A stretch of 64,000 bases of DNA, taken from Poecilobothrus nobilitatus (lineage: Eukaryota; Arthropoda; Insecta; Diptera; Dolichopodidae). This document shows positions 6,964 to 61,216 of this stretch, in pieces. The position numbers were made by a program, and so were the translations under genes. A model generated the notes under the pieces. It did not search any database. It was not told where the DNA came from and saw nothing but the letters and a program-made list of their open reading frames with translations. Location of the stretch: NCBI GenBank assembly GCA_947095535.1, contig OX352773.1, positions 167,164,438 to 167,228,437 on the forward strand, given 5' to 3'. Positions within the stretch are counted from its first letter, which is position 1. Each line of letters begins with the position of its first letter.

Positions 6964-7366
6964 ATGGTTGGAGTAAAAAGTATATTATCATCATATAATG
7001 ATATTATTATGAATAATGATACATTAACTTTATCTGAAAAACTGGATTTATTACATGAATTGCATAATAAATTTACTTCTCATATGACTACAGAAACATC
7101 ATATAATTATGATAAGAAATTTAATAATTATGATAGTAATAATAATATAAATTTAAATAATAATGATTATTTTAATAATAAAGATACTATTTATATTCAT
7201 AATAATAATAATAATCATAATATAATAAAATATTCACGTACAAAACCATTATATATTAGTTTTTCTATATTGGGTGCTGTTATATTTTTCATTTTAATAT
7301 GGATATTATGTATTTGTTTTAAAAAATCTAAAAAAAATTATTTACAAAATAATAGAACACAATATG
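6964..7366 (+). CDS. Small single-pass membrane protein, first coding exon (N-rich member)
   Basis: The ATG sits in an A-rich leader (AACAATAATGG). The exon encodes 134 residues plus one base of a Gly codon. Residues 45-86 are an Asn/Asp/Tyr-rich low-complexity spacer. Residues 95-119 are hydrophobic (PLYISFSILGAVIFFILIWI, then LCICF), followed by a KKSKK stop-transfer patch, so the N terminus is probably outside. The exon stops at ATG|GTAAGTT, the best donor in the array, in phase 1 like all other members. Without splicing the frame runs only to 7398. A possible acceptor is TTTTTAG at 8551-8555. Two Cys lie at the cytoplasmic edge (C116, C118). No homology to a named family was recognised; membership rests on architecture, strand and donor phase. 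Confidence 0.6.
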
Positions 7367-7459
7367 GTAAGTTATTTTATCAAAAAATAAAAAAATAAAA
7401 ATCAACAATATGTATAAAAATATGTGTTATGTTATATTATATTATATTTTATGAATATA

Positions 7460-8180
7460 CAGGGTTTTCCAATTTGAGTTATATGATTTCTTTTCAAAAA
7501 AAAAACACACAAATTAAGTCGTATGTCATAACAAAACTGTCGATTCTGGTGCGAAGATTATTCATGAACAACCGTAACATTCACCTAAATTGATAGTTTG
7601 GTGTGGTTTTTGATCTGGTGGAATCATCGGTCCGTACTTCTTTCGAAATGAAGCTGGTAACACAGTTACTGTCAATGGAGAGCGGTATAGATCGATGATA
7701 ACCAACTTTTTATGGCCGAAATTGGAAGAAATTGATCTTGACAACATCTGGTTCCAACACAGCACGTGCAACAACTAAATTATTGCGAGAAAAGTTTGCA
7801 GATTCGATTATTTCAAGAAATTGTGATATTGAATGGCCTCCAAGAAGTTGTGATTGAACACCATTAGACTATTTTTTGTGGGGTTATTTGAAGTTATTGG
7901 TCTTTAGCAATAAACCAGACTCTCTTCAAGCTTTAGAAGTCAATATTGAACGTGCTATACATGACATACGACTTGATTTAGTGGAAAAAGTGCTCAAAAA
8001 TTGGGGTCATCGAATTTGTTCCTGCAAAAGAAGTCGTGGAGGTCATTTGAATGACGTTTTATTCAGAACTTAATTGTATCGATTGTACTTCACATTAAAT
8101 AAAAAACATTTGAATTTCCTTAACAATTAGTGTGTTTTTTTTTTTTAAAGCAATCATATCACTCAATTTGGAAAACTCTA
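7460..8180 (+). mobile_element. Truncated Tc1/mariner element (copy 1)
   Basis: Flanked by TA (7458-7459 and 8181-8182). The ends CAGGGTTTTCCAATTTGAGT and ACTCAATTTGGAAAACTCTA are inverted repeats. The inside reads as a broken transposase: GGIIGPYFFRNEAG, then ERYRSMI, WPPRSCD, PLDYFLWGYLK and NKPDSLQA. It contains a frameshift near 7760, where the second catalytic Asp should be, and a TGA in the CD-x-TPLD motif. The 5' third of the gene is missing. It sits in the presumed intron of the 6964 gene and shares ends with the copy at 44761-45564. Confidence 0.85.
7876..8073 (+). pseudogene. Mariner transposase C-terminal fragment
   Basis: 65 codons continue after a stop in the DDE domain. The fragment starts inside the L-D-Y-F-L-W-G-Y-L-K motif that holds the third catalytic Asp and runs to the natural C terminus (HLNDVLFRT). 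The same tail is present at 45259-45456 with few changes. Not functional. Confidence 0.8.
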
Positions 8181-8182
8181 TA

Positions 8183-9290
8183 TCTATATTATAATTTTAC
8201 TCTTACTCTTCCCAGAAAAAAAAAAAATTAAAAAAAATTATAAAATAAACAACAAATTTTAACAGAAAAAAAAAATTATTTAAAAAAGATTTATCAAAAT
8301 TTTTTTTGGAAGAATATGAATACATATTCACATTCATACATACATATGTACATACTTTATAATAATTACTTTGAAATGTTTTTTTAATCACAAACGTCGT
8401 CATAATACTAATTATATAAATTAATTAAAATAATTTTCTTTTATTTTTGTATATTTAATATACATACGTAACTAAGTGTGTAACTAATTGTAACTAAGTT
8501 CAAACATACATAATATATAAAAAAAAGTAAACTCTTTTATAAATTAATTTTTTAGATAGGCATAGGAATGTTATAATTTATAAATTATATACCTATATCT
8601 GGTTATAATATTATTATATTATATCTGATTATAATACATACATATATATATATTTTAATAAATAGTAACAATATTTTATACTATCTGTTTATAATTGCAT
8701 GGGCATGTATGAATTGTATGTATTATATGTATTGTGTTTGCATCTGTGCATGTATGTATTATATTGTATGTATGTATGTATTGTAATTGTATGTATAATT
8801 ATTTTATACTACTACAATACATATGTAACTATGTATGCATTGATAAAAAAAAACAAAAAACAAGTTGTAGGTACATAGTTTTATATTTAACCCATATTAA
8901 ATTAGATAGTAATTTTACATAAAAAAAAGCTTTCTTTTTTTATGTTTCATTTATTTTTTATTGCTTTTTAAAAGATTATTTACAAAATAATTTGAAATTT
9001 TACTTTGGAATTTAATAATTTAATTAAAAATATTTTCATAAATTAAAATAAAGAAAGTATCTTAATTGTCATAGTTTTATGTGTCTAAAACTAGAAAAAT
9101 TGAATTTTTTAACCCTTAATATAGCGGTTTAAAACGAGATAAAAAGAAGGGAGAGATTTTTTTCTAAGGTAAAAGACATCTGTCTGATATCCAGATCAGT
9201 GCTGTCACCTTAACGGGATGTTATAGTAATAAATCTGATCAAAAAAAGTAGCAGATAGTAACTTAAAGTAGTAGATATAATTTAAATTAT
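8183..9290. other. Gene-free AT-rich stretch
   Basis: TATG microsatellites (8740-8790) and homopolymers. A minus-strand frame at 8203-8403 is only the complement of A-rich sequence. Nothing else was seen apart from the weak acceptor at 8551-8555. Confidence 0.5.
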
Positions 9291-9324
9291 AAAATCAAAA
9301 TACAATAAAATAATTTTAATAAAT

Positions 9325-9564
9325 GTCAAGTTTAATCCTATCGGAATAGTATTGCTCAATTGTCAGCCTAACCTAAAAATTATTACTATGTATAACGCAC
9401 CTGATAATAATAAAAATGATTATGTCAATTCTCTTGGTATCCTTCTTAAAACGTTTAATAAAAACATTATTATATTAGGTGACACTAATATTTATTTGCT
9501 CTCAATTAACGATCTTACAAATACTTATAAAAACATAATTGAATCAAGACTTATTTTTACTTAA
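9325..9564 (+). pseudogene. Non-LTR retrotransposon endonuclease fragment
   Basis: The frame reads I-G-I-V-L-L-N-C-Q-P-N, then I-I-T-M-Y-N-A-P, N-I-I-I-L-G-D-T-N-I-Y-L-L and Y-K-N-I-I-E-S. This is the usual order of an APE-type endonuclease domain in Jockey/I-type ORF2, in which the catalytic Asp lies in a GDFN-like motif (here GDTN). About 75 codons remain. There is no start, no RT domain follows, and the surrounding DNA is unrelated. Confidence 0.65.
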
Positions 9565-9576
9565 AAAAGAAAAAAA

Positions 9577-10788: not shown

Positions 10789-11179
10789 ATGTCATACTTA
10801 AAGTGCGGTAACGATTCATTATATTTATGTAAAAATGTTACAAATCGTTTAGATACCTATTCAATATTAAAAAAATTAGCATTAAATTTATCAAAAACTT
10901 CTAATTATAGTAAGGTGTATGACTCATCAATATTTAATTTATATTCTACAACAAATTCTCCAAATTATGTTCAATATCAAAGATTAAATTATTATAATAA
11001 TACAAGTTTTTTATTTTCACAAGTTTTTGCAGTCTTTTTAATAGCTGCATTTATTGTATTTTACATATTTTTTGTTTATAGTATTACATGTATTTTATGT
11101 TGCTATTCACCAAAAGAAAAAAAACCAAAAGAAGATGTTGTTTTAACAGTTCTAAATCATGATAATGGTATTGTAGAAG
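10789..11179 (+). CDS. Small single-pass membrane protein, MSY sub-group, first coding exon
   Basis: The exon encodes 130 residues plus one base. Residues 1-70 form a polar N-terminal part with sequons at N8 (NDS) and N16 (NVT) and with C6 and C14. Residues 75-100 are hydrophobic (FLFSQVFAVFLIAAFIVFYI). A C-x2-C-C-Y-S-x-K-E-K-K patch follows (C101, C104, C105), then an acidic tail (HDNGIVE) ending at GAAG|GTAATG. The first 42 residues are nearly identical to the protein at 16895, while the membrane segment is quite different. Unspliced, the frame ends at 11202. A well-formed candidate terminal exon lies at 15046. Probable topology is N-out/C-in from the sequons and the basic patch. Function unknown. 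Confidence 0.7.
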
Positions 11180-11535: not shown

Positions 11536-11539
11536 ATTA

Positions 11540-15083: not shown

Positions 15084-15220
15084 TTTAAATTAATTTTTAA
15101 TTTAAAAATTAAATACAAAGGTAAAGGTTCAGATTTGTTTTTAATATTTATGAATATATGAAAAATATCATAATTTCATGTATTTATAGAGATAATAATA
15201 TAAAATCAATATTTTTCATA
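15084..15220. other. Presumed 3' UTR of the 10789 gene
   Basis: AT-rich sequence after the TGA at 15081. No canonical AATAAA signal is obvious before the tandem duplication. Confidence 0.3.
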
Positions 15221-15355
15221 TTATTAATTTTGTTATTACAAAAAATATTGAAAAAGTACCTATAATGATCAGATCAACGTAATCTAAATTATTAATTTTG
15301 TTATTACAAAAAATATTGAAAAAGTACCTATAATGATCAGATCAACGTAATCTAA
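15221..15355. repeat. Perfect 68-bp tandem duplication, two copies
   Basis: Copies at 15221-15288 and 15289-15355 are identical over about 67 bases (containing GATCAGATCAACGTAATCTAA). The identity implies a recent event or an assembly duplication. Confidence 0.9.
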
Positions 15356-16894: not shown

Positions 16895-17303
16895 ATGTCA
16901 TACTTGAAGTACAGTAACGATTCATTATATTTATCTAAAAATTTTACGAATCGTTTCGATACCTATTCAATATTAAAAAAATTAGCATTAAATTTATCAA
17001 AAACTTCCAATTATAGTAAACTTTATGAATATGACTCATCAATTTTAAATTTTAATTTTCCGACTAATACTCCAACTTATGTTCAATATAATACACCTAA
17101 TACAATTCCAAAACGTATTGTTATAATTATAATAGTTATAATTATAAAAATTATATGTTTTGTTTGTTACCATGCAGTAAAAGAAAAAACTCGAAATGAA
17201 ATTGTAGTTATTACTCAAAATGTTAATCCATTACAATCACCAAATCATAATCTGTATGATATTGTTTATAATGATGATAATGATGAAAGTGAAAGTGAAG
17301 ATG
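16895..17303 (+). CDS. Small single-pass membrane protein, MSY sub-group, first coding exon
   Basis: The exon encodes 136 residues plus one base, closing at GAAGATG|GTATGTT. The N-terminal 42 residues differ from the 10789 protein at only five sites in that span, two of which replace both cysteines (C6 to Y, C14 to S). Sequons are at N8 (NDS) and N16 (NFT). The hydrophobic segment (75-92) is almost pure Ile/Val with one Lys (K85). C88 and C91 precede a K-E-K-T-R patch. The tail is long and acidic (NDDNDESESED). Unspliced, the frame would end in Phe/Cys low complexity at 17332, which supports the donor. No terminal exon could be picked with confidence; the intron to the right is filled with transposons. 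Confidence 0.7.
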
Positions 17304-18896: not shown

Positions 18897-18911
18897 GGGG
18901 GAGTGCAGGTT
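18897..18911 (+). repeat. 15-bp target-site duplication, left copy
   Basis: GGGGGAGTGCAGGTT, repeated exactly at 20930-20944 after the poly-A tail of the retrotransposon. Confidence 0.85.
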
Positions 18912-20542
18912 TAAAGTTTAAAGCTCTCAAGAACAAAATTTCTTCTGGTATCGACAATATCCCAAATATAGTGTTAAAAAATCTAAGCAGATTTATAATA
19001 TCTAAATACGTTGTCCTTTTTAATAATGCAATAAACAATTCGTATTTTCCTAAGAATTGGAAAACAGCGAAAACCATATTGATAAAGAAACCTGGCAAAG
19101 ATCCAACCAACCCCAGCAATTATAGACCAATAAGCCTAATGCCAAACATAAGTAAAATATTTGAAACTTTAATAAATGATAAAATTTCGAGCATTGCACA
19201 CTCAAAAAACCTCATACCTGATAACCAGTTTGGGTTCAGACCCAAACACAGTACAATTAACACTATAACTAAATTAACTTCCGATATTTGCTGGTTCATA
19301 AATAAAAACTACGGCGTTGGTGCCTGTCTCATTGATTTGGAGAAGGCATTCAATTCGGTTTGGTTGGACGGTTTAACATACAAATTATTAAAATATAAAT
19401 TTCCATTACGCTTAATAGTACTTATTAAAAATATGTTATACAATAACAAATTTCTAGTACATAGCCAAAATAATATGTCTAACAAAACATTTGTAATTGA
19501 AAATGGTCTCCAACAAGGTATTGTTAACGCACTAATTCTTTTCTCGATCTACATAGCAGATCTTTTGCTCTGGTTAGACCGAGTTAAAGCTAATAATTAT
19601 GCCCTAGCTTTCGCAGACGACATAATAATATACTCTGCGAATGACACTGTAAATAGCATTCAGTATACTATTCAAAATATGTTTAACATTGTACAAGATT
19701 ATTGCAAAATATGGAAATTAAAAGTGAACTTTAGTAAATGTGAAACCGTGTTATTCCGTAACACGGTAGACAAAACAAGTTCAGACATTAGGAAAAATTG
19801 AAAAAATTTTACCATTAAATCGCCCATTTCACCTCTCGCAAATAAAAAAGTCGTTAAATATCTTGGGGTTCACCTTCATAGAAATCGGAACTTCATTGAT
19901 CATATAAAATACACAAAAGAGAAAGGTAATAAATCCTTTATGGCAGCAAAGAACCTCTTTTACAACAAAAATATCAGTAACAGAGTCAAAATTATTTGCT
20001 ACCAAACATTAATAAGGCCTACGGTTGTATATGGTGTACCCATATGGTACAATATCAGTGCAAGCCTAATGGAAAAAATCCGCAAGTTTGAAAGAAAGTG
20101 CATAAGAGTTTGCATCAATAAACATAGAAAACCTGAATCCGAGTACAAACATTTTTACTCCAATAAATATTTGTACAAGGAATCAAAAATCATAAGAATC
20201 GATAATTTTATTAAATTAATTCGCAAACACTATGATAGAGCATTAAATTCTCCAGAAAATGGTTTAATATCACATATATTTTACCACAATGAGGAGTACA
20301 TCAAGAAGACTTTGCTCACGGGCTTCATAGCACCTGAGCATTTCATCTTCTTAGACAAGCATGGTTATATACAAAACCAAAATCATGTCCCTATACTATT
20401 TCATTATAGTAGACGGGCTACATGTAAAAAAATTGAATATGATCCAGGTAACGTCAACCCAGATAATATGAAATATGAGATGTCGATACCAGATATAGAT
20501 AAATCAATAAAAAATAATTATTGGTGGTTAAGCACGTTATAA
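18912..20542 (+). pseudogene. Reverse transcriptase ORF2 fragment of a non-LTR element
   Basis: The frame contains the RT hallmarks in order: NWKTAKTILIKKPGKDPTNP and SNYRPISLMPNISKIFE; NQFGFRPKHST; CLIDLEKAFNSVW (first catalytic Asp); GLQQGIV; and the FADDIIIYS catalytic box. A single in-frame TGA at 19799-19801 breaks the protein, and the same frame then stays open for 246 codons (KYLGVHLHRN, then IRPTVVYGVPIWYN) to TAA at 20540-20542. Endonuclease and ORF1 are missing because of the 5' truncation. The architecture (RT, then the I-R-P-x-x-x-Y-G-x-P-x-W region) fits the Jockey/CR1 group. Not active. Confidence 0.85.
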
Positions 20543-20929
20543 ACAAAAATATAATTTATTAGTATAAAAAATTGGTACATTAAATTATTAGATTAGTGTT
20601 ATTTTAGTATTAAAATAATAATTTTTAGTTATGTTTCTTAATTAGTTGTAAGAATAGGATAAGTTAGGCTAAGGTTTAATTTTTTGCAATTAATTAAAAT
20701 TAAGGAATTAATACATACTCAAAGGTATGATTAAGATAGTCAGTAAACATTCATAATAATTATTAAGACAAACAATTTAACATAAAAAAAAAAACATTTT
20801 ATTTTTACATGTTAATTTTTAAAGCACGAAAAACCTTTTTTGTTAACTATTTTTGTAGGTTAAGTTATTATAAGTATGTAAGTAAACAACAAAATAAAAG
20901 TTCAATAAAAAAAAAAAAAAAAAAAAAAA
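18912..20929 (+). mobile_element. 5'-truncated Jockey-like non-LTR retrotransposon
   Basis: It begins inside the reverse transcriptase and ends with a poly-A tail of about 22 bases (20908-20929). It is bounded by a perfect 15-bp target-site duplication. The 5' truncation, poly-A and TSD show target-primed reverse transcription. The perfect TSD and mostly open ORF imply a fairly recent insertion. Confidence 0.9.
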
Positions 20930-20944
20930 GGGGGAGTGCAGGTT
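20930..20944 (+). repeat. 15-bp target-site duplication, right copy
   Basis: Exact repeat of 18897-18911, directly after poly-A. Confidence 0.85.
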
Positions 20945-22752: not shown

Positions 22753-23143
22753 ATGTCATACTTTGATAATAATTATGCATTATATTCATCTGATGATTCA
22801 ATTTATTCATCTAAAAATATTACTGATATTGTAAATATTAATTCAATATATACAAATTTAACAAAAAATTTTAATTATGGTCCACTTTTAAATCGTAATT
22901 TGTCAACTTTTTTTCCAAATTATATACAATATCAAAAATCAAGTTATGATTATAATAACAGAAGTTATAGAGCTATAGGACGTATAATTATATTTTTGAT
23001 AATTGCATTTATTAAAGTTGTTTGCTTTTGGTGTTGTTATTCAGCAAAAAAAAAAAAAAGATCAAACGAAGTTGTAATTGTAACACAATCAATAACACAA
23101 AATGATAGTTTATTAAATTCACCAATTGATGAAGATGAAGATG
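22753..23143 (+). CDS. Small single-pass membrane protein, MSY sub-group, first coding exon
   Basis: The exon encodes 130 residues plus one base and ends at GAAGATG|GTATGTT, the same donor context as the 16895 gene. The ectodomain is Tyr/Ser/Asn-rich with sequons N22 (NIT) and N35 (NLT) and a PNYIQYQ stretch aligned with PNYVQYQ of the 10789 protein. Residues 78-95 are hydrophobic with a Lys at 88. The juxtamembrane C-F-W-C-C-Y-S-A-K patch (C91, C94, C95) aligns with the 10789 protein. The tail (residues 103-130) is acidic at its end (IDEDED). The upstream block (22671-22715) shares TTTAGTTTG and GACGCGAAATT with its paralogues. Candidate terminal exon at 24641. Unspliced, the frame runs into T-rich repeats and ends at 23217. 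Confidence 0.7.
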
Positions 23144-25461: not shown

Positions 25462-25637
25462 CGTAGCGCAAGCCTAGTGAGCAAGAGCATAGAAGAGTAT
25501 AAAATAACTTTAAACAACGAGGGAGTTCCAATCCCATACACCTCTTAAGAATAATTTCCCCTTACGATATTTACAACAACACCTAGAAAGGGGAGGCTTT
25601 GTAATTTCCTTGTTACATTTATGTGGCAGATAAATAA
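25462..25637 (+). mobile_element. tRNA-derived SINE, family S, degenerate (copy 1)
   Basis: The worn head (CCTAGTGAGCAAGAGC, then GAGGGAGTTCCAATCCC as B box) is followed by the family body TTCCCCTTACGATATTTACA and GGCTTTGTAATTTCCTTGTT ACATTTATGTGGCAG. The same body is at 41060-41175 and 63785-63895 (inverted). Confidence 0.7.
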
Positions 25638-26810
25638 CCCCAAAAAAAAAAAATAATTAATAATTCAAGTCTTAAAAATTTAATTTGGTTTATTTTTTTT
25701 TCATTTAAATCTTAATAAAATTTTGCTTATATAGATAGCAATATATATATATATATATACATATATAGAAATTTATAAACATTCATAAATAAAATTTAAA
25801 TGATTTTTTTTTGCAATAATTATGTGAAATAAAAATAAACTCAGATATAAAATATTATTTTTGTTTCTAATTCTGTATATTCTAAAAATTAAGATTTTGT
25901 TTTATTTTATCACAATACAGTGAAACCTGTTAATTGGAATATTCTACAATCAAAAAATCAATTTTTAATTGGATCGGTATATATTGCAAGATTTTCTTTT
26001 ACTTTTTCATACTATACATTATTTTATCTGTATTGAATGTAAGCCTGATTTAAAATGTATTAAATCTTTATAGAATGTTCCCATAAATTACTTTGTAAAA
26101 GATTTTCTTTCATTCAATTAAACTTTCAAATAAATACATTAAATTTGACATTAGAATTATTCTATTTTTTTATTTGCATTTTTAACCATTTCTTTTATTT
26201 TGGTTACAACTTGACTCAATTTTTTCAAATCCAATTTCAATACTATCTACAGGATTTTTTTTTACAAATTTTTGATTAAATTATTTTAGGTCATCTGTTG
26301 TTTCGTGGTTCGAGGTTATTTCACTTAAAAAGAATTCAATGTATTTATATACTTAACCTTAACGTAAACTTTTCAGAATAATATTTAAAAAAAAAAAACT
26401 AATTTACGCGCGCTTTGAAACTTTGTTTACACAAGATAAATCCATAAATATATTTAATATAAAATGTATATTATGCAGGTAGTGGTACTTATATAATATA
26501 TTTTAATATAAAGGTGCGCCATTTTTATATTCATATCTGTTATTTAAATATTTAATTTAATTTCTTTTTTCTTAGTTTTGTTTTTATGTTCCTCTAAATA
26601 AACATTTTTACATTTTCTTTTAATTTTAATATAGAATTCTTGGAAAATTCTATTTATCAAAATGTTAATAATAATTTCGATTAACTTTTTTATAAAAATT
26701 AAATAAATATACATACCTAATTATATAGGGGGTTGCATTTCAAAAATTATAAAAAAATTCAAAATATAAATAAATGAAAAGTTAGAAAAAATAAATAAAT
26801 GTAAATAATT
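25638..26810. other. Gene-free AT-rich stretch
   Basis: A TA microsatellite near 25740-25765. GTGAAACCTGTTAATTGGAA (25921) looks like one worn end of a pogo-type element, but no partner end was found. Nothing else. Confidence 0.4.
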
Positions 26811-30778: not shown

Positions 30779-31001
30779 ATGTCAAAATTTATTAATGATT
30801 ATAGTGAAATCGTTTATCTTATTATTCTTTTAATAATTGCTTTATGTACAAATTATATTATTATATACAAATATTTATCGTTTATATAATATTTGTTATA
30901 AAAATTACAATATAATATATAGTAAGCATAACACTCCCCTTATATTATCATAGCAATAGCATATAATGAAAATGAAGATAATAGTGAAAATAATGAAAAT
31001 G
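30779..31001 (+). pseudogene. Broken mini-TM family member
   Basis: The ATG at 30779 opens 36 codons (M-S-K-F-I-N-D-Y, then a hydrophobic run V-Y-L-I-I-L-L-I-I-A-L) before TAA at 30887. Further stops follow, yet the same frame resumes with an acidic tail (NENEDNSENNEN) ending at AATG|GTGAAA in phase 1, exactly where a family donor is expected. The membrane-then-acidic-tail layout and phase match the array, so I read it as a decayed member. A functional 36-residue peptide is the alternative. Confidence 0.45.
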
Positions 31002-31197
31002 GTGAAAATTAAGGTATATTATTACATAATATATAAAAAAATTCACCTCAATAATATATATATGTATATATACATAAATAATTAATTTGAATTATACATA
31101 TGTTATTTATTTTATTAATTGAATTCATAATTACAAGTATGTATTTCATAAAATTTAATAAAAATATGTACAAACTTCTCTTCATGTATGTTGTATA

Positions 31198-33337: not shown

Positions 33338-33473
33338 ATGGGTATTGATAACATCGTTTTAATAATTTTCATATTAGTTATTATTATAATTATTCTTCAT
33401 ATTTTTTTATATTTTTGTGAAATTTTATATGACAATCGTAAATCAGATCAACTTGGATTAGTAGATAATGAAG
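33338..33473 (+). CDS. Mini single-pass membrane protein, first coding exon
   Basis: 45 residues plus one base. ATG follows a poly-A leader. Residues 5-28 are almost all Ile/Val/Leu/Phe (VLIIFILVIIIIILHIFLYF), then C-E-I-L-Y-D-N-R-K. The tail L-G-L-V-D-N-E is followed by G|GTAAAT, in the shared phase 1. The tail matches those of the 35949 (LINHEG) and 41670 (LIENQG) members. The unspliced frame adds only repeat-derived residues to 33538. Confidence 0.55.
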
Positions 33474-33539
33474 GTAAATATGTACATATATATTTATGTA
33501 TATACAAAAAAAAATTTAATTATTTGTGGTTTTTTTAAG

Positions 33540-35948: not shown

Positions 35949-36189
35949 ATGGATTATCGTGAAAATATATTTGAACATGCAGTGGAACAGAAATTATATG
36001 GAGATGCATCAAATGAATCTTTAACAAGTATTGGAATATCAATGATTTTTGGAATAGTTATTCTAATAGCTGTTGCTGCTGTTATTTTAATATCAATATT
36101 ATATTTATGTGTTTATGGATCGTTACGTTGCTGTGAAATGTGTTGTTGCAGACGAAAATCAAATCATGTTTTATTAATAAATCATGAAG
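35949..36189 (+). CDS. Small single-pass membrane protein with Cys-rich patch, first coding exon
   Basis: 80 residues plus one base. N-terminal acidic part (MDYRENIFEHAVEQ) with a sequon at N22 (NES). Residues 30-53 are hydrophobic and richer in Ala/Gly than the other members (ISMIFGIVILIAVAAVILIS). Then C54 and the patch C-C-E-M-C-C-C-R-R-K (61-70), a likely palmitoylation-type or metal-type cluster. The tail V-L-L-I-N-H-E is followed by G|GTATGG in phase 1. Codon use is the least AT-biased of the set. A strong acceptor 250 bp downstream gives a short terminal exon (36441). Confidence 0.65.
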
Positions 36190-36440
36190 GTATGGAACGT
36201 CTTACTTAAAAATTCTAAATACAATACAATTTTTAAATATCAAACAATTTAATATCTATAAAAAAATTGTTTTTAATTTTTGTTTTTTTTTTTTTTTTTT
36301 TTTTTTCGATAATATAATTTTAATTAACAATTTATCAAGTTTTATATATATATTTTTATATAAATTATAATATATTTAAAAAATATGGAAAAAAAAAAAA
36401 AAAAAACTATGAATAAATAAAGATAATAATTATTTTTCAG

Positions 36441-41006: not shown

Positions 41007-41190
41007 CGGAATATCGGTGACGTAGTGGGTAAAAGCATATAAAATACGCTGTAAATTCCGAGGATGTGTGGGTTCGAATTCTATCACACATCGTAAGAAA
41101 TAATTTGCCCTTGCGACATTTACAGCCACATTTCACAAGAAAGGCTGTGTAATTTCATTGTCATATTAATGTGGCAAGGGAATAAACTAA
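41007..41190 (+). mobile_element. tRNA-derived SINE, family S (copy 2)
   Basis: The head has an A-box-like TCGGTGACGTAGTGGGTAAA AGC and the B box GTGGGTTCGAATTCT. The body has TTGCCCTTGCGACATTTACA GCCAC and GGCTGTGTAATTTCATTGTC ATATTAATGTGGCA. A 63-codon minus frame over it is incidental. Confidence 0.8.
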
Positions 41191-41669: not shown

Positions 41670-41802
41670 ATGAATGATGCTGTAATTTTTATTATTTTTG
41701 CAATAATTGTCGTTATTACAATTTTTTTTACAATACGTTTCTGTTTTTGTTCAAATAATTATAATAGAAGCCATAATATAACAACTTTAATAGAAAATCA
41801 AG
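41670..41802 (+). CDS. Mini single-pass membrane protein, first coding exon
   Basis: 44 residues plus one base. The Met-Asn start is followed by a hydrophobic run from residue 5 to 21 (VIFIIFAIIVVITIFFT), R-F-C-F-C and a polar tail (SNNYNRSHNITTLIENQ) ending at CAAG|GTATTG in phase 1. The unspliced frame closes at 41837-41839. The tail LIENQ|G is equivalent to LVDNE|G and LINHE|G of neighbours. Its shortness means routine gene finding would probably skip it. The identification rests on layout, strand and phase. Confidence 0.5.
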
Positions 41803-44162: not shown

Positions 44163-44319
44163 ATGAATTTTTTAATTGATATTAGTTTAATAATTATTAG
44201 TATATTTGTTGTTTGTTTTTTAATTACTTTTATAATAACATTTATTTGTATTAGTTGTATATTAGATCATATTTGTTGTAAAAAAAAATTAGATAATTTT
44301 ACAATAAAGGAGAATAAAG
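44163..44319 (+). CDS. Mini single-pass membrane protein, first coding exon
   Basis: 52 residues plus one base. The true ATG is taken at 44163, since upstream codons in frame lack an ATG. Residues 5-33 form an unusually long hydrophobic stretch (IDISLIIISIFVVCFLITFI, then ITFICISC), followed by D-H-I-C-C-K-K-K. The tail LDNFTIKENK ends at AAAG|GTAAAT, phase 1. Cys at 18, 29, 32, 38 and 39. The 8 bases around the donor equal those of the 33338 gene. The unspliced frame runs into a TA repeat. Confidence 0.5.
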
Positions 44320-44863
44320 GTAAATACTATATATATATATATATATCAATATTATTTATTTACTTATATATACTTTACATATATAATTTATATAGTTTAA
44401 GATTTACCTATATATACAGTCCGAAACGTATAAGTGTAAAACGCATAACTGAATAAAACGCGTAACTGCACACGATCATAAAACACCATATCTGTTTCTG
44501 TACAATAAATATATACATATGTATAACTGCAAAAATGTGATAAGTGTAAATTCCTATAAGTGCACAACATTTTCAAACTCCAAAATAATTTTTTCGTTGA
44601 TTTAAAAACATATAAATGCAATTTTACAATTTTTGATTAACAAAATTATTTTAAATATGTATGTATGTATGTATGTATGCGTTTGGTCTACATGACTTAT
44701 TCTTTGATATTATTTTATTATAGTGCAAATATGTGCAACTATTGTAGATCAGTACAAATATAGGGTTTTCCAATTTGAGTGATATAATTTCTAAGTGACG
44801 TTTCGGCCATTTGTAGTATGTCATGATCTGTAATTTTTTTTTCATTGTATTCAGTAAATAGTA

Positions 44864-45112
44864 ATGTTTACAATTTCATCATGGAGAGATATACGCAAGA
44901 ACAACGTTTACAAATTATTCAATTTCAACGTTTACAAATTCAATTTTTTTAAGAAAATCATCTTCTCCGATGAGGCTCACTTTCATCTGAGTGGTGTCGG
45001 GTGTGGTAAATATTTTACCGCACTCTTTCGATTCTGGTACAAAGAAAATCCACAAATTATTCATGAACAACCATTACATTCACCTAAATTAACAGTTTGG
45101 TGTGGTTTTTGA
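44864..45112 (+). pseudogene. Mariner transposase N-proximal fragment
   Basis: Contains F-S-D-E-A-H-F-H-L-S-G and K-E-N-P-Q-I-I-H-E-Q-P-L-H-S-P-K-L-T-V-W-C-G, then a TGA where relatives continue W-S-G-G. The N-terminal helix-turn-helix region is replaced by unrelated sequence. Confidence 0.75.
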
Positions 45113-45258
45113 TCTGGTGGAATCATCGGTCCGTACTTCTTTCGAAATGAAGCTGGTAACACCGTTACTGTGTTTTAAATTATTTTAATTACTGTCTTCT
45201 AAATTGTAACAATGAATGGCCTCCAAAAAGTTGTGATTTAACACCATTAGACTATTTC

Positions 45259-45456
45259 TTGTGGAGTTATTTGAAGTCATTGGTCTTTAGCAATAAACCA
45301 GACTCTCTTCAAGCTTTAGAAGCCAATATTGAACGTGCTATTCATGACAAACGACTTGAATCAGTGGAAAAAGTGCTCGAAAATTGGGTTCATCGAATTC
45401 GTTCCTGCAAAAGAAGTCGTGGAAGCCATTTGAATGACGTTTTATTCAGAACTTAA
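45259..45456 (+). pseudogene. Mariner transposase C-terminal fragment
   Basis: 65 codons equivalent to 7876-8073, with N-K-P-D-S-L-Q-A-L-E and the same C terminus. Cut off from the rest by the internal deletion and stops. Confidence 0.8.
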
Positions 45457-45689
45457 TTGTATTAATTGTGCTTCACATTAAATAAAAAACATTTGAATTT
45501 CCTTAACAATTGGTGTGTTTTTTTTTTTGAAAAGAAATCACATCACTCAAATTGGAAAACCCTATATATGAAGCACTTAAAGATTAGTGCAACTGTGTGC
45601 ACTTATGCATAAATGCAAAAAACAATTTGGCAGATTGGGTGTGGATTTATTCGTTTCGGAGAATTCCGATTATACATATGTATGTATGC

Positions 45690-48460: not shown

Positions 48461-48638
48461 ATGTATAAAACTGACCATTATTTCTTTATTCTTACAATTA
48501 TCTTTTTTAAAATTATTTTAATTGCTTTATATGTTACGTATCGATTATATTGTTTTTATCGTTTGACTGATTTTTGTTATATATTTTGTTGTAACAAATG
48601 TTCAAAAAGAAATTTATTAGATGAAGAAGAATGTGAAG
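48461..48638 (+). CDS. Mini single-pass membrane protein with Cys patch, first coding exon
   Basis: 59 residues plus one base. Residues 7-27 are hydrophobic but contain K17 (YFFILTIIFFKIILIALYVT). A second, Tyr/Phe/Cys-rich part (28-48) with Y-C-F-Y and C-Y-I-F-C-C-N-K-C-S-K-R follows. The tail LLDEEECE ends at GAAG|GTAAAA, phase 1. ATG sits after a T-rich tract and ATTATA. Candidate terminal exon 136 bp downstream (48774). Confidence 0.55.
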
Positions 48639-52499: not shown

Positions 52500-53650
52500 A
52501 ATTCCGACAGGAAGAAAGGTGTCATAGGAAGAAAGGTGTCATAGTCAAGATCGCTAAAAAGAGTGACCTATAACTGATTGCAATAATTGCAGAGGTATAA
52601 CATTAGAAAATTTTAACTGAAGTAAATTTAATTAGACTCCAAAATATACAATGAGGAATACACTCATAAATCAACAGATTGGATTTTGACTAAATAAAAG
52701 TTCTCTATACCAAGCTAATACTCCACTAATAATTTTAGAGCATATGGATCACCACTTTATTTAATATTTGTTGATTTTAAGTTAGCCTTTGATTCCATTC
52801 AAATAAACGAAAAATGGAGAGATCTAAAAACAAGAAAAGTACCGCAGAAAAAATAATTAATATAATCATGTAAAGTATATGTACGAAAATGTGTTACTAT
52901 AAATATTACTCAATAGGAATATTAAAGAATCATTCACAACAAATTCAGGTGTCAAACAGGATGATCCTCGCACCGTTACTACTTATTATCGTCTTACAAA
53001 ATATTTATTTATTTATTTGTCATCGGCTACTAAGGCCATTATAAGTCGAATACTAATATTAATTTATACATTAATACTATTACTATTTTGTTTATATTAT
53101 ATATTATACACCATATATTTGGTAGCAAGGAAGATTTGTTTTCAATTAATAAAACCTGGTACCTGGACAGGATTTGAACCCGCACTCCCTCGGTCCTCGG
53201 TTGATAAGCCACGTGCTAAATCACTAGGCCACCGATAGACAATATTATTAGAGAACTTAGTATAGAGGTATAAGTTGTTCAGACGAAAAATATCTAAAAG
53301 ATCTTAAGTTCGCGGATAACCAATCAAATTAGAAACAAATTACCAGAAGGAAATGGAAATGTAGGTTTCACACATTAAGAATAAATGAAGACTGCATAAC
53401 CAGAATGATGTTAAACTGGAATCGACCAGATGAGCCCAAAATTAGCGGATGGTCCAAAATAATATATAAAAAAAAACAGTATTGGAATAGCAATAACTAG
53501 GTACGAGATATTCTCGAATGAAGTAAAAGAATTAGTAATGATTAATGAATACATATATGAGGGGAAACTTCATGTAGAAGCCTTATACTCTTACGAAAAG
53601 TTTACAAAAAGAGAAAAAAGCAAACAGAAAACCCTTCTAATAATAAAAAT
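52500..53650 (+). pseudogene. RTE/BovB-like reverse transcriptase remnant, split by a SINE
   Basis: In shifting frames one reads N-C-R-G-I-T-L-E-N-F (52595), Y-L-I-F-V-D-F-K-L-A-F-D-S-I (52765, first RT Asp), K-V-P-Q-K-I-I-N-I-I (52835) and N-S-G-V-K-Q (52945). After the SINE come H-T-L-R-I-N-E-D-C-I-T-R-M-M-L-N-W-N-R (53370) and C-terminal pieces. This order (RT motifs, then the I-G-H-x-L-R region) is typical of RTE-type ORF2. It is full of stops and frameshifts. Confidence 0.65.
52994..53240 (-). mobile_element. tRNA-derived SINE inserted in the RTE remnant
   Basis: Read on the minus strand: TATCGGTGGCCTAGTGATTT AGC (A box), then GGAGTGCGGGTTCAAATCCT (B box), a 150-bp body and an AT-rich tail. 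The tRNA half resembles family S but the body differs. ACAATATT-like sequence on both sides may be the target duplication. Confidence 0.7.
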
Positions 53651-54651: not shown

Positions 54652-55090
54652 ATGAATATATCATCTTTAATCATATCACATTTAAATTTAACTGATTTTA
54701 TAATTGAAGAAAAAGAAAAACCTAATTTATTTTTAAGTGATATTAATTATTTACCACAATATGGTACTGCCAAAGAAGCATCAAATAAAAATGCTGGTAT
54801 TATTTTCGGAGTAATAGCATTAATATGTGTTTTAACATGCTGTTGCATGTGGAAAATTATGAATTTAAAAGAAAAGAAAACTAAAAGACCAACATTACAA
54901 CAACAATACGAAAATGAAGAGAGATCATTTCCAACATCAACAAGATTTGGACCAACATCATCTACATTTAATTCAGCAACAACAGGATCAACAACAACAC
55001 ATACATTTCGTTCAGAAGGACCAACATCATGTGGTTATCAAACCACAACAACAACATATTTTAGTACAGGACTTAATGATGATGATGATG
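54652..55090 (+). CDS. Small single-pass membrane protein, MNIS sub-group, first coding exon
   Basis: 146 residues plus one base. N-terminal MNISSLIISHLNLTDFIIEE with sequons N2 and N12 and a shared YLPQY motif. Hydrophobic 48-66 (NAGIIFGVIALICVLTCCCM) with three adjacent Cys (63-65). A basic stretch K-I-M-N-L-K-E-K-K-T-K-R follows, then a Ser/Thr-rich tail (92-140) with two G-P-T-S repeats, then DDDD. The frame reads GGT TAA directly (stop 55093-55095), so it could simply end in Gly. But ATG|GTTAAT is also in the family donor position and phase. Probable topology N-out. The tail could be heavily phosphorylated; no function assigned. Confidence 0.7.
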
Positions 55091-55095
55091 GTTAA

Positions 55096-55850
55096 TATAA
55101 GAATTTCTTATAAATTATATACATATACATATATATATAATATATAAATATTTTAATAAATATATGTAAGAGATCGTGACTGCAAGGTTCCCAAATGATA
55201 AAACTCAAAATCGCTCCGATAATATCTTTAATATATTAATAAAATTTAAATACTATATAGGTATATGATTTTTAAGACCGAAATTTTAATCTTTAGTGTA
55301 AATTAAAATAAAAGTACTATTTAATTATTAATTAATTTTAGTATAAAATCTATACTTTAGAACTTAGGTAATTAAATTGTGATATATAATACCACGTGAT
55401 ACCTAGTATAAATGTAGCATAGTAGTTAGTACTCATTTTCCAAAATATATATAATATTAAAATGTAAATATAAATATAATTTTTACCGATTATAATCTAT
55501 AGTTTAAAATTTTCCAATTAAGTTAACTTCCTGTAAATCTTTACTGATAAACATTAATCGGTGCCATATAAATATAATATAATTACTAAGAGATTCTAGA
55601 TATTCAAAAAAAAAAAAAAAAACGGCTAAAATAAAATAATAATAGCTTAAACTAAAAATAAAATTATCAATAAATATTTTAGTAAACCAAAAAATTTAAA
55701 TATAATAATTATGTGTATGTATATATGTATAAAGAAAAACTTTTATATTTTTCCTTTTCACGCGAATATAATTAAAAAGAAACAAAAAATGAAATTCTGG
55801 TAAAATTAGTATTTTAATTAGACCAGACATTAATAATAATAGAGAATCAA
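55096..55850. other. Gene-free AT-rich stretch
   Basis: 3' flank of the 54652 gene. Nothing recognised. Confidence 0.5.
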
Positions 55851-56659
55851 GTTAGGACCTACACGTGTAAATATTATATTTCTATGTGAATATATTGTGC
55901 GTAATTTTTTTTTTTTTTATCAATTTGTTTTGCTTCAGTGAGAAATTAAAAAAAAATTGATGTCATTCTTTTTTCAAACTTTTTTTTTTTATTTATAGCA
56001 TATATTTGGAACACATAAATTATTTAATTTGTATAATTGTATCTGTTTTTTTTTGTTTTTTGGAAAATTTCTTTAAGATAGGAATAAAATCGAATACATA
56101 TACACAATAGCATACTGAACATATACATATAGAAATCATTTTTGAAAAATTTCTCGGAGACATTTTTGATTTTACTACCTAGTTATTATAGTTATATTTC
56201 TCAATCATTTCTAACTTCTCTCTTTTTTTGACATATTTTTGACATATTTCTTCAAAATAAAATAAAAAAAGAAAAACACAAATACAAAAATTCTGAAAAA
56301 TACAAATGAAATAAAAAAATATGTATGTATTATACAGTATAGTAAAATTAAATTTATATGGAATAATTTTATTTTAACTATATTGTCAATTAAGCACACT
56401 AATAAAGCTTTACTTTAAATATAAAAGTAACTATAGCTAGCTTGTAAATCAATCCATAAGATATATAATAAAGAAAAGTAAATTGAATTTTATATTAAAA
56501 TAAAAATAACTTTGTTTTTAGTTTTTATAAGTTGTTAGTGGTGAAGTGATCACGTTTCAGATAAAATCTGATCATAAGTGAATTTTTATTTACTAATTTT
56601 TTTTTTTTTTTTGTTAAAAATTTTTTATTAAAAGTTATTATAAAAAATAAAAAAAAAAA

Positions 56660-57113
56660 ATGAATATATCATTTCCAATAATATCATATTTAAATTTAAC
56701 CGATTTTATAATAGAAGAAAAAAAAGAATCTATTTTACATTTAAGTGATAGTAATTATTTACCACAATATGAAAATGCTAAAGATGGATTAAATAAAAAA
56801 GCTTATCTTATTTTTAGCGTTATTCTGATAGTATGTTTTTTAACATTTTATTGTATGTATCAAATTTCAAAAATAAAAGATATAAAAAATAAAAGGACAA
56901 CATTAAATTTACAACAACGGCCCGAAAATGAAATAACATTATTTTCAACATCATCACCAACTTATTGCCCAACATCATCTACATTTAATTCAAGAACAAT
57001 AGAATCAAGCAACAGAGGACAAACTTCATCTAATTTTCATTCTACAACAGTAGAACCAACATCATATGCATATCAATCCACATCAGGATTTAATGATGAT
57101 ATTGATGATAATG
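56660..57113 (+). CDS. Small single-pass membrane protein, MNIS sub-group, first coding exon
   Basis: 151 residues plus one base. Paralogue of the 54652 protein: MNIS, LNLTDFIIEEK, SNYLPQYENAK, S/T-rich tail with PTSSTFNS and PTSYAYQS, acidic end DDIDDN. Sequons N2 and N12. The hydrophobic segment (49-66) has two Cys instead of three adjacent ones. The frame reads GGT TAA (stop 57116-57118) or, spliced, ATG|GTTAAT in phase 1. A candidate acceptor 140 bp downstream (57257) is conserved in the broken copy. The ectodomain and tail are better conserved than the membrane segment. Confidence 0.7.
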
Positions 57114-57256
57114 GTTAATATAAAAATTTATGAGAAATTAATTTTTTTTTTTTTTATTAAATTGAAGTTTTAAATACATTTTAAAGAATCTAATTAAAAG
57201 ATTAGAAATCGATTAGATTCGAAAAGATTAGAAATCGATTTGAGTTCGATTTTTAG

Positions 57257-57288
57257 GTATAGTTTATTTTACAAATAATCCTATATAA
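57257..57288 (+). CDS. Candidate terminal exon of the 56660 gene
   Basis: The acceptor TTCGATTTTTAG (57255-57256) is followed by GT, completing a Gly codon, then I-V-Y-F-T-N-N-P-I and TAA. The same acceptor and following bases remain at 59270-59320 in unit B. The weak GTTAAT donor makes splicing uncertain; plain termination at 57118 is equally possible. Confidence 0.25.
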
Positions 57289-58198
57289 ATAAACTGTCAG
57301 TTCATGATAATAAATTTTGTTAGATAATTAAAAGGAATAATTGCGGATTTCTCATTTTGATGGAGAGGTCAGCTTTAAATTGAATGGCGAAACGAATTTA
57401 TTGAAATCAATTCTAAAAAAAAATAATATATCCTCAACATAATCTTACTTACCCTTATTCATAAAGATAATATATTTATAATATCCTCAATTTCCTATCA
57501 TACCTTCGCTCCTACATACATAATGTATACATGCATACATACATAATGTATCTGTGATGCAGACAGACATGAACAATTAACAAGCAAAATATTGAAAAAA
57601 AAAAAAAAATTACAGCAATAATTCTGTCTTAATTTTATTTCTAATATACAAGAGTATATAATTTATAGATGGTAGAACCGACAACTTGTAGATACAGTAC
57701 TTTAGTTTTGTTAAAATTAAATATTAAAGAAATTAATGTTAAAAAAACGCGACACGGTGCAACTAATTAACTAAAATAAAATAAACTAATTAAAAAAAAA
57801 AATTAAATTAACTAAAAAAATATGTTAAGCGAAAAAAATATGAAGCAAAAAAAAAAATTATATTCCTTTTTACAGAAATATAATAAAAAAAAACTAATTC
57901 AAACAGTGGACGTTAAGTTATTTAATATTATATTATGTAGTATTTAAACATAACAATAAAATTGTATGTATATACATTGTGTATATAAACGTAATGTTTG
58001 TTACATTGTGTATATAATCATTGTGTATATAAACGTAACAAAAATTACGTCATTTTTTTCACAAACATTAGGTAGTAATTTTTTTTTGTTTTCTAAATCG
58101 CCGTAAAAATTTAACACAACTATTTATTGTGTTTATTAATTTTTTTTTTTTTTTTTTAGTTTTTAAATATTTTTAAGTAATAAATTTTGTATACATAA
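57289..58198. other. 3' flank inside unit A
   Basis: Contains a local repeat of CATTGTGTATATAAACGTAA (57976, 58019) and otherwise AT-rich sequence collinear in part with 59330-59690. Confidence 0.5.
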
Positions 58199-58345
58199 CG
58201 TTTAATTAATTCAAATAATTCAAATGGTTTGTTTAATTTATTAAAAAAAAAACATTTTGATTTTTAATTTTTTCCTTAATTTATTTGATTTTCGTTTTTA
58301 AAACTTTCTTTAAAGATGAATGAAAATTGAAAATAACGAACCAAG
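58199..58345 (+). pseudogene. Remnant of a Q-rich family gene (unit A)
   Basis: GTTTAATTAATTCAAATAAT TCAAATGGTTTG and the following intron plus AAAGATGAATGAAAATTGAA match the 3' end of the 60070 gene (60387-60545). Everything 5' of the last six or so codons, including the start and membrane segment, is deleted. Confidence 0.7.
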
Positions 58346-59087
58346 TAAGTCCTACACGTGTGAATATTATATTCCTATGTGCGTATATTGTGCGTAATTT
58401 TTTTTTTGTTTCAATGAGAAATTAAAAAAAGAAAAGAAAATTACGTCATTCTTTTTACAAAGTTTTTTTTATTTACAGCAGATATTTGAAACACATAAAT
58501 ATTTAATTTGTATCTGTAGTTTTTTTTTTTTTTGGAAAATTTCTTTAAGAAACAAATAAAAGTTAATCACATACATATACACAATAGTCAATAACCATAG
58601 TCCATAGATATAAAAATTATTTTTAAAAAATTTCTCAGAGACATTATATTAGTTAATTATATTTTTGCATGATTTCTAATTTTTCTCTTTTTTATGACAT
58701 ATTTACGGCGAATTTCTTCAATCAAAAACAAAATAAAAAAGCAAATACATATTATGCATGTATTTTATACAGTATAGTATATAGTTAAATTTATATGTAA
58801 TACATATATTATTGTAACTTTGTCAATTAAGCATACCAATAAAGGCTTGTAAATTGTAATATAAAAATAACTACTTAGTTAGCTAAACCAGTCCATAAGG
58901 TATATAATAAAGAAAAGTAAATTGAATTTTATATTAAAATAAAAAATAACTTTGTTTTTAGTATTTACAAGTTGTTAGTGGTGATTGGTGAAGTGATCAC
59001 CAGATAGATAGATAACAACTGATCATATGTCAATTTTTTATTTACCTATTTGTTTTTTTTTGTTTGTTTATTTTGTTTTTGTTTGTT

Positions 59088-59265
59088 GTTGTTTAAATTT
59101 ATCCAATTTTATAATAGAAGAAGAAAAAGAATCTATAATAAAACCGGTTGTTTTTTCGGTTGTTTTATAAGATATGTATTATAGTATTTTATTGTATGTA
59201 TGAAATTAAAAAAAAAAAAGAAAATTACATTTATAACAACGGCCCGAAATATTAGAAATCGATTT
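59088..59265 (+). pseudogene. Broken MNIS-type gene (unit B)
   Basis: Keeps TTAAATTTATCCAATTTTAT AATAGAAGAAG (L-N-L-S-N-F-I-I-E-E), KESI, a stub of the membrane end (C-M-Y-E-I) and CAACGGCCCGAAAT, all clear matches to the 56660 gene. The start codon, most of the ectodomain and membrane segment, and the S/T-rich tail are deleted; a stop lies in the remainder. Confidence 0.8.
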
Positions 59266-60069
59266 GATTTCGATTTTTAGGTATAGTTTATTTTACAAAT
59301 AATCCTATAATTAAACTATCAGTTTATGATAATACATTTTGTTAGATGTTAGAAGTTAGAATGATCCGGTCTCACTCGATGGAGACGCCCAATGAACGTT
59401 AAGTTATTATTTAATTTTTTTTTTGTAGTAACATTGAACATAACAATAATATTGTTAATTTATATGGATTTACTTCCATACGTATGTACCTATTATATAT
59501 AAAACATATGAAAATTTCTGTAAACGTAATGTTTATAATTTTTCTCAACATTTTTTGTTTCAATGAATATAAAACAAAAATTACGTTAACACATTTCTTT
59601 TTCGCCGTAAAATTCAAAACAATTATTTATTGTGTTTACTTTTTTTTTTATTAATATTTTTAAGGAATAAATTTTATATACGCATATATACACAATTAAA
59701 CATACACATAAAAATTTATTTTAATAATTAATTGTTTTTTTTAAAAAAAAATTTTTCTCTTTTTAAAAAATTTTACGGCGAATTTCTTCAATCAAAAACA
59801 AAAAAGGTGACTAATACTTTATTATAATATAAAAAAAAAAACGTAAAAGCTTCTTTCTCACAAAAAAAAAAAAAAAAAAACAAACCCAATTTTTTTTACT
59901 CCTTCCAAAAAAAAATCGGACATTTTTTAGTACAAAATCATGTATATAGTCTGATGAACGCGAAATTCGGATATAAAATTTATTTTACGAAAAATAATTT
60001 TTATTTTTAAACCAAAAAAAAATACAATTAGCAAAATATTTATATAATAAATAAAATAAATCATATAAA
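59266..60069. other. 3' flank of the broken copy and 5' flank of the 60070 gene
   Basis: The first part (to ~59350) equals 57190-57320. The part at 59590-59680 (CGCCGTAAAATTCAAAACAA TTATTTATTGTG) equals 58100-58140. No other gene. Confidence 0.5.
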
Positions 60070-60412
60070 ATGATAACAAATAAAAATTTAACATTAAAAA
60101 TGAATTCAAATGAATCGATTTTATATTTAAATAATAGTTATTTTAATAAACAATATAATATAAAAACAAATAGTAATTATAAAAATTATATTCTTGGTGC
60201 AATATTTTTAATTATTATATTATTAACAATTTATATAATGCATTTATTAAAAAAAAGACGTTTAAAATTATTACAAAAACAACAACATGATTTAATACAA
60301 ATGCAAGAAACAGAATTTGAATTAAGTGATCAAGAACATCAACAGCAACAACAACGACAACATCAAAGACAACAACAACAAATAGGTTTAATTAATTCAA
60401 ATAATTCAAATG
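60070..60412 (+). CDS. Small single-pass membrane protein, Q-rich sub-group, first coding exon
   Basis: 114 residues plus one base from the ATG at 60070; a second in-frame ATG at 60103 (MNSNESILYLNNSYF) would start like its neighbours and may be the real one. Sequons NES and NNS follow it. The hydrophobic segment is NYILGAIFLIIILLTIYIMH, then L-L-K-K-R-R-L-K. The cytoplasmic part is Q/H-rich (QEHQQQQQRQHQRQQQQ), ending S-N-N-S-N and ATG|GTTTGT in phase 1. Without splicing the frame continues through K/F-rich sequence to 60492. A 115-bp intron to an acceptor at 60527 gives a two-residue terminal exon, and that boundary is partly kept in the unit A remnant. Confidence 0.6.
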
Positions 60413-60527
60413 GTTTGTTTTTAAATTTATTAAAAAAAAAAAAAACATTTTTGTTTCGATTTTTTTCGACAAAAAAAAATGATTCCTTTTAAAATATTAT
60501 TTTTGTGACCTTTAAAATTTTCTTTAG

Positions 60528-60535
60528 ATGAATAA
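60528..60535 (+). CDS. Candidate terminal exon of the 60070 gene
   Basis: The acceptor AATTTTCTTTAG (60526-60527) is followed by AT GAA TAA, giving Asp-Glu-stop. In the unit A remnant the same place reads AAAG AT GAA TGA, also Asp-Glu-stop. Very short, so support is limited. Confidence 0.3.
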
Positions 60536-60852
60536 AAATTGAATATAAGAAAAAAAGTTGAGCTTTTCAAAAAACAAAAATATGTGTACAAAAATGTAAC
60601 TTGATAAATATTTACTTACGAATGTATTTATGTATGTATTTTCGACACATTATATGTTACAGTACAATTAATTTAGTACTATAACAAATATTTGATAGAT
60701 TCAGATGTAAAATTAATATTTTAATTTTAAAATAGGATTTATCTTCTAAACAAAAACAAAATTATAAAGATAAAATACATAAATTAAAAATATTTTTAAA
60801 TATTTGATTAAATACAATTACAATTAATTAAAATACAAAATAAAAAAAAAAA

Positions 60853-61216
60853 ATGAATATAACATTTTCAAATATTACCATAGATTCAATTGAAGAAAAT
60901 AAAACCATTTCATTATTTTTAAATTCTAGTCATTCATTTTCATCTAAATCAGATTATTATCATTATCGCGATAATACTTATGATAAATATCGATATAGAA
61001 AATATAATAATGAAAATCCTTTTCTTAGTGTTATATTGTTAGTAATAATTGTTTACATATTAGGATTTTATTTAATGCATAAAGGTAAAAAATATAAATT
61101 ATTAGAAATAAAAAAATTACAAAAAGAATGGATTATATCACAAGAAGAAGGAATAAATTTAAATCAAGAACAATTGCAACAACAACATCAATCATTTTAT
61201 AATAATTTAAATAATG
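60853..61216 (+). CDS. Small single-pass membrane protein, Q-rich sub-group, first coding exon
   Basis: 121 residues plus one base. MNITFSNITIDSIEENKTIS has sequons N2, N7 and N17, plus N24 (NSS), the clearest sign that the N terminus is extracellular. A Tyr/Arg/Asp-rich stretch (35-54) precedes the hydrophobic segment 57-75 (FLSVILLVIIVYILGFYLMH). K-G-K-K-Y-K and a Q/E-rich part (NQEQLQQQHQ) follow, ending N-L-N-N and ATG|GTTCGT in phase 1. The unspliced frame ends at 61290. Y-[IL]-M-H at the membrane exit and the K/Q-rich continuation link it to the 60070 protein. The donor is weak, so termination at 61290 is possible. Confidence 0.65.

Follow-up and report, generated by a model that had tools for sequence, protein, structure and literature searches.

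A one-strand array of first coding exons

In the 64-kb window analyzed here (the whole stretch of contig OX352773.1 of the fly Poecilobothrus nobilitatus; GC content of ca. 22%), 13 intact exons, each apparently the first coding exon of a small single-helix membrane protein, form a 54-kb array on the + strand and end in donors of one phase (Table 1; exons are called by their order or by the position of their first nucleotide). We lean toward reading the array as alternative first coding exons of one gene, the common remainder of which would lie outside the window, because the repeated unit consists of upstream region, exon, and donor, always on one strand and in one phase, with no recognizable splice partner nearby. 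An earlier note on this DNA had described a local family of genes with 13 intact and three broken first exons. All 13 intact exons and their lengths were reproduced, with an open frame from the ATG to the G|GT and no internal stop, and three broken copies were found. The common design, strand, phase, first-exon status, and kinship within subgroups stood, but their description as separate genes was less well supported than that as alternative first exons, no second exon having been recognized.

The window was scanned for the design itself: an ATG-initiated open reading frame (ORF) of at least 40 amino acids, a helix averaging 2.2 or more on the Kyte-Doolittle scale over 19 residues, and, five or more codons past it, an in-frame GGT, cutoffs that were picked with the exon list already known. 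The scan returned 14 candidates on the + strand (the 13 exons and a 59-amino-acid low-complexity ORF at 8699) and 0 on the − strand, against a mean of 0.17 and a maximum of 1 in 60 order-3 Markov sequences, and chance ORFs were rejected on this comparison. Codon usage was evaluated by leaving one out, each exon being scored with the usage learned from the other 12. Scores were above 0 in the proposed frame for 12 of the 13 exons (all but 48461) and −22 or lower in the other two frames of all 13, with training and test exons that include relatives and are thus not fully independent.

Pairs of related exons point in the same direction. In unguided DNA alignments of 10789/16895, 9 of 9 indels within the exon came in threes, versus 2 of the 13 flanking ones. 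For 54652/56660, the figures were 5 of 8 (the remaining three sum to 12) versus 6 of 16, and two poor alignments gave 6 of 15 versus 1 of 18 (16895/22753) and 11 of 22 versus 8 of 20 (60070/60853). Nonsynonymous and synonymous divergence being nearly equal among close relatives (see below), the frame is maintained while residues vary freely.

A uniform phase-1 donor

The uniform phase-1 donor reported earlier held up well. The top-scoring GT of any phase between helix and stop was in phase 1 in 13 of 13 exons and was the proposed G|GT in 12, the site of 54652 ranking third. With phase 1 making up 51 of the 81 GTs examined, the chance of obtaining 13 of 13 is ca. 0.0025. On a matrix of generic donor frequencies, with 725 GGT sites of both strands for ranking, the GTA-type donors of nine exons fell between the 67th and 98th percentiles. 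The residue before the Gly is recurrently Asp, Glu, Asn, Gln, or Lys, which is partly a consequence of the donor signal on its exon side, where G|GT follows xAA or xAT.

TABLE 1 First coding exons, broken copies, and upstream elements in the window
Feature	Position	Strand	Length from ATG (nt)	Donor	Remarks
First coding exon 1	6964..7366	+	403	ATG|GTAAGT	134 codons + 1 base
First coding exon 2	10789..11179	+	391	AAG|GTAATG	Subgroup A
First coding exon 3	16895..17303	+	409	ATG|GTATGT	Subgroup A
First coding exon 4	22753..23143	+	391	ATG|GTATGT	Subgroup A
First coding exon 5	33338..33473	+	136	AAG|GTAAAT	Tiny
First coding exon 6	35949..36189	+	241	AAG|GTATGG	Cys-rich exit
First coding exon 7	41670..41802	+	133	AAG|GTATTG	Tiny
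First coding exon 8	44163..44319	+	157	AAG|GTAAAT	Tiny, Cys-rich
First coding exon 9	48461..48638	+	178	AAG|GTAAAA	Tiny, Cys-rich; sole exon without codon-usage support (−0.5)
First coding exon 10	54652..55090	+	439	ATG|GTTAAT (weak)	Subgroup C; ORF stops right after (GGT TAA)
First coding exon 11	56660..57113	+	454	ATG|GTTAAT (weak)	Subgroup C; ORF stops right after
First coding exon 12	60070..60412	+	343	ATG|GTTTGT (weak)	
First coding exon 13	60853..61216	+	364	ATG|GTTCGT (weak)	
Broken exon	30779..31013	+			ATG and helix followed by stops and frame breaks and an acidic tail (30950-31009, scoring 17.8 on codon usage)
Broken copy of 56660 unit	58901..59249	+			Upstream region retained (58901-59068, 84.5% identical to 56660 unit)
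Exon fragment	58200..58243	+			93.6% identical to 60386-60432, the end of the 60070 exon, crossing the proposed donor
Upstream element TTTAGTTTRAA	10687..10722	+			TCAG 26 nt past the start of its TTTAAA
Further TTTAGTTTRAA copies	6602, 16784, 22670, 35787, 48317	+			
Core TTTAGT of 60070 exon	59926..59931	+			
Other TTTAGT cores	41548, 43989, 56517, 60672	+			

Predicted topology and protein family searches

Over the 13 exons, Lys plus Arg within the 15 residues flanking the helix rise from 22 before it to 47 after it, and glycosylation sequons fall from 27 to 6. Both counts favor an N-out/C-in orientation, and the anchors probably have the N terminus outside and the C terminus inside. The basic or Cys-rich exit and the glycosylatable N terminus of the earlier description hold on the whole, the exception being the four smallest exons (33338, 41670, 44163, and 48461), which have only 3 to 7 residues ahead of the helix and no sequon there. 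A single-sequence AlphaFold2 model of the 35949 exon, which speaks to helix prediction only, gave one helix over residues 4 to 77, with a mean predicted local distance difference test score of 95 to 97 over residues 31 to 50 and 77.8 overall.

No Pfam family scored above its cutoff in 12 of the 13 exons (eight were scanned as whole ORFs and five as exons). The ORF of the remaining one (60853-61290) matched the Tc5 transposase DNA-binding family at residues 88 to 139 (27.5 bits, cutoff of 22.2, E value of 3e-6). This match extends over a K/Q-rich tail plus 18 residues beyond the last whole codon of the 60853 exon and is probably compositional. When the 54652 ORF was compared with proteins of similar length, a search that full-length isoforms would escape and in a collection that may hold few insects, nine candidate homologues were returned, none with an E value of 1 or lower. 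Solved structures, searched with two of the 13 exons, yielded weak matches (best E value of 0.68 for 35949, and of 0.022 for 22753, to an anaphase-promoting complex subunit).

Duplicated units and upstream elements

That subgroups share sequence, as had been claimed, was borne out by subgroups A and C and by the likeness of exons 5 and 6 (33382-33476 is 69% identical to 36097-36192; E value of 4e-4). In the broken copy of the 56660 unit, the exon (59092-59249) is down to three matching pieces, none of which matches the donor. Outside the first exons, comparison of the window with itself (six frames, open runs of at least 18 codons, E value of 1e-3) returned nothing but pieces of mobile elements, repeats (dispersed or tandem), and duplicated blocks from about 54652 to 59.3 kb whose likeness shows in several frames on both strands. 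A block (57223-57285 versus 59247-59309) is 97% identical between two duplicated units, exceeding the adjoining exons. It holds an acceptor-like TTTTTAG, its frame differs between the copies, and it is probably noncoding.

Likeness among the units extends upstream, the 150 nt before the ATG being alike in 38 of the 78 exon pairs beyond the 95% line of the background (3.9 expected). The motif TTTAGTTT, or a close form of it, precedes many exons, with an element of this type 80 to 180 nt upstream of 10 of the 13. Its form TTTAGTTTRAA has six copies on the + strand of the window, each 83 to 362 nt before an exon ATG, and 0 on the − strand, while 10 of the 13 exons have TTTAGTWY in the 300 nt upstream, versus 2.2 at random positions. 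A TATA-like stretch at or near the element is followed 18 to 26 nt on by a TCAG-like site at 10789, 16895, 22753, 48461, 54652, and 60853.

Search for downstream exons

No second exon was recognizable in any interval between the first exons, in scans too blunt for an exon the size of the four tiniest. Six-frame self-comparison disclosed no translated, coding-looking segment shared downstream within subgroup A or C. Codon scores of at least 18 outside the exons belonged only to their antisense shadows, segments above 9 were even between strands (26 on + and 25 on −), and the best segment outside the exons was the acidic tail of the broken exon that starts at 30779.

Acceptors were sought with a strict rule (YAG, at least 10 pyrimidines out of 15, and an intron of at least 40 nt). 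The interval between exons 10 and 11 has three such sites, opening a frame of at most 10 codons (32 if any AG is allowed). A mere 440 nt separate the last two exons, and the 200 nt searched there, from 60070 to the 60853 upstream region, contain one strict acceptor, with 2 codons. With so few strict acceptors and such short openings, exons 10 and 12 are unlikely, to judge from sequence, to have second exons of their own; for the remaining exons this is possible. The strict acceptor at 57257 was rejected as the start of an exon, since its frame runs 10 versus 21 codons in the two copies and no AG occurs at the corresponding place in the alignment after 54652.

One gene or several

Several observations weigh against alternative first exons and are gathered in this section with the rival explanations. 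The upstream pattern was spotted by eye and counted afterwards, a motif search by expectation maximization returned poly-A only, and the spaced TATA/initiator pattern is not enriched by strand (128 on + versus 119 on −). Part of the upstream likeness is fed by poly-A leaders and AT-rich runs, and at 150 to 300 nt upstream it concerns 11 of 78 exon pairs. Likeness is also found in the 150 nt past the donor (22 of 78 pairs, 3.9 expected), the next 150 nt (150 to 300 past the donor) being alike in 5 pairs (ca. 3.9 expected). Self-comparison in six frames linked neither the tiny exons to each other nor 60070 to 60853. Nonsynonymous (dN) and synonymous (dS) divergence were nearly equal between close paralogues (0.30/0.33 and 0.27/0.28, by a method that is poor at 22% GC), which would imply that amino acid constraint is weak or diversifying.

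The donors of 54652, 56660, 60070, and 60853 are GTT-type sites at the 25th to 65th percentile. In 54652 and 56660 the GGT is followed directly by a stop, as in a single-exon gene, and the 58200 fragment resembles 60070 sequence on both sides of the proposed donor. One rival explanation is that the array consists of single-exon genes for small membrane proteins, with ORFs that end at their stops and a G|GT that is only a near-terminal Gly codon. It would fit the two GGT-stop endings and also 60070 and 60853, which have weak donors and a cumulative codon score that reaches its peak 7 and 11 codons beyond them. However, the score also peaks beyond good donors (10 codons for 33338, 7 for 22753, and 6 for 10789), and nine exons have better donors, each the top one among all GTs of its ORF. 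Sequence after the donor codon scores 1.5 or less in 13 of 13 exons and is negative in nine, and tails past the donor vary from 0 to 44 codons. We consider single-exon genes improbable.

A mixed arrangement, with the nine GTA-donor exons as one alternative-first-exon locus and 54652-60853 as a neighboring family of single-exon genes, seems very improbable to us. The donor type does split cleanly at 54 kb, and the four exons of the second set resemble one another, six-frame self-comparison tying none of them to the other exons. Yet both sets lie on one strand with equal anatomy, and the upstream core is common to 56660, 60070, and 60853.

The downstream region supplies the remaining points against alternative first exons. 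No common constant exon was recognized within the window by self-comparison, codon, and acceptor scans. The codon scan is insensitive, as four known exons (33338, 41670, 44163, and 48461) also score below 18, and at lower cutoffs there is an excess on the + strand (52 versus 38 segments above 8, and 95 versus 64 above 7), part of which consists of mobile-element remnants on that strand. If any AG is permitted, the frame between exons 12 and 13 opens for 40 codons. Five strict acceptors follow exon 13, with up to 34 codons (91 with any AG). Strict acceptors in the larger intervals open longer runs, of up to 66 codons outside mobile elements, and the one at 57257 (10 codons) falls inside the 97% block.

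Such sites bear on a further rival, which we regard as rather unlikely: small genes that are separate members of a tandem family and have, one by one, a short exon 2 (missed here) and a 3' end of their own. The units and their upstream regions are plainly duplicated in tandem (54652, 56660, and the broken copy at 59.1 kb), short exons would slip past the self-comparison and codon scans, acceptor-like sites in most of the larger intervals open frames some tens of codons long, and the + strand surplus at low codon cutoffs would fit as well. On the other side stand the lack of a coding-looking downstream segment common to close paralogues and the poor supply of strict acceptors after exons 10 and 12. 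Separate genes are less supported because no second exon was seen, the last exons are so close together, and close paralogues have upstream region and exon in common, with no downstream coding sequence detected.

A model for the locus

If the exons are alternative first exons, the window would represent the variable 5' part of a single large gene, with at least 13 first coding exons arranged head to tail, each behind its own core promoter. The exon of the active promoter would be spliced from its phase-1 G|GT to one shared acceptor beyond 61.2 kb, probably outside the window. The contribution of each exon would be a short outside N terminus (from 3 to some 100 residues, and open to N-glycosylation where longer), a single signal-anchor helix, an exit that is either basic or Cys-rich and perhaps palmitoylated, and a linker whose end is often acidic or Asn-rich. 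The constant exons would encode the cytosolic working part, and the choice of promoter would decide its anchor, surface tag, or membrane address. The constant part, splicing to a common acceptor, the N-out topology, and the activity and choice of promoters are what we infer.

Mobile elements and repeats between the exons

There was no sign that the exons are parts of mobile elements, the element remnants of the window lying apart from them. A non-long-terminal-repeat retrotransposon, apparently 5' truncated and with a poly-A end, occupies 18897-20944, with its reverse transcriptase at 19139-19801 (Pfam RVT_1, 107 bits). Bracketed by what appear by eye to be two direct copies of GGGGGAGTGCAGGTT, it looks like an insertion with a target-site duplication. 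Two transposase remnants with broken frames, 93 to 96% identical in parts, are located between exons (7557-8117 and 44780-45560). We take them to be mariner-like, although Pfam scans of two pieces did not bear this out. Short dispersed repeats, some of them inverted and with a tRNA-like box by eye (25555-25653, 41014-41079, 53170-53240, and 63773-63985), are perhaps tRNA-derived short interspersed elements; ARAGORN calls no tRNA. A 68-nt direct repeat stands in tandem at 15200-15335 (two copies, 87% identical). Rfam and tRNA scans of the window returned nothing.

Comparison with known systems

Tandem arrays of small lineage-specific membrane-protein genes arise by local duplication, diverge fast, and include broken copies. 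The array described here resembles them in its local duplication, rapid divergence, and broken copies and differs in that only first exons recur, with no complete gene recognizable. Insect gustatory receptor loci of the Gr39a/Gr28b type have several promoters and first exons that are spliced to shared 3' exons. Their first exons are long and encode several helices, whereas those of the array are short and single-helix, and none matched a receptor above the cutoff. No multihelix chemoreceptor domain was found in the exons, which have one helix by hydropathy, the 7tm_7 match on the 60070 ORF staying under the cutoff (14.5 versus 26.6 bits).

Synaptotagmin-type anchors consist of a short, glycosylatable lumenal N terminus, one helix, a Cys-rich exit, and a charged linker, with the cytosolic part encoded downstream. 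The exons of the array share the short N terminus, single helix, Cys-rich exit, and charged linker; unlike in synaptotagmins, no C2 domain was found in the exons of the window. We know of no single gene with 13 alternative anchors of this type.

The clustered protocadherins of vertebrates have tandem, same-strand variable first exons, with their own promoters and a shared upstream element, that are spliced to constant exons. These variable exons use one donor phase and extend through the transmembrane helix into a short cytoplasmic segment. Along these lines, the array has tandem first exons on one strand with a single donor phase (4 of 13 donors being weak), and each of them holds a helix; promoters and common exons are here presumed. 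The array differs in its outside part of 3 to 100 residues, with no cadherin repeats or cadherin sequence, and in belonging to an insect genome. No cadherin family was above its Pfam cutoff and no cadherin repeat was found in the 13 exons. The 60070 ORF had subthreshold matches to Protocadherin (18.4 bits, cutoff of 26.3) and Cadherin_C_2 (16.8 bits, cutoff of 31.5), which span the helix and its flanks, not repeats. The likeness to protocadherins is, by this analogy, one of architecture only. It is a tentative and still doubtful idea that the locus is an independently evolved promoter-choice code in the manner of protocadherins, reduced to minimal parts, with one cytosolic effector and at least 13 fast-evolving anchors. 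If so, one protein would carry a surface tag and a membrane address that vary between cells or tissues. If the constant region is shared, promoters would here drive protein diversity in a system other than the vertebrate protocadherins, at a locus that is compact and evolves fast. Variable parts as small as these would then test whether an anchor and juxtamembrane linker alone can diversify a protein, and gene annotation in AT-rich genomes could be tested on first exons of 44 to 151 codons.

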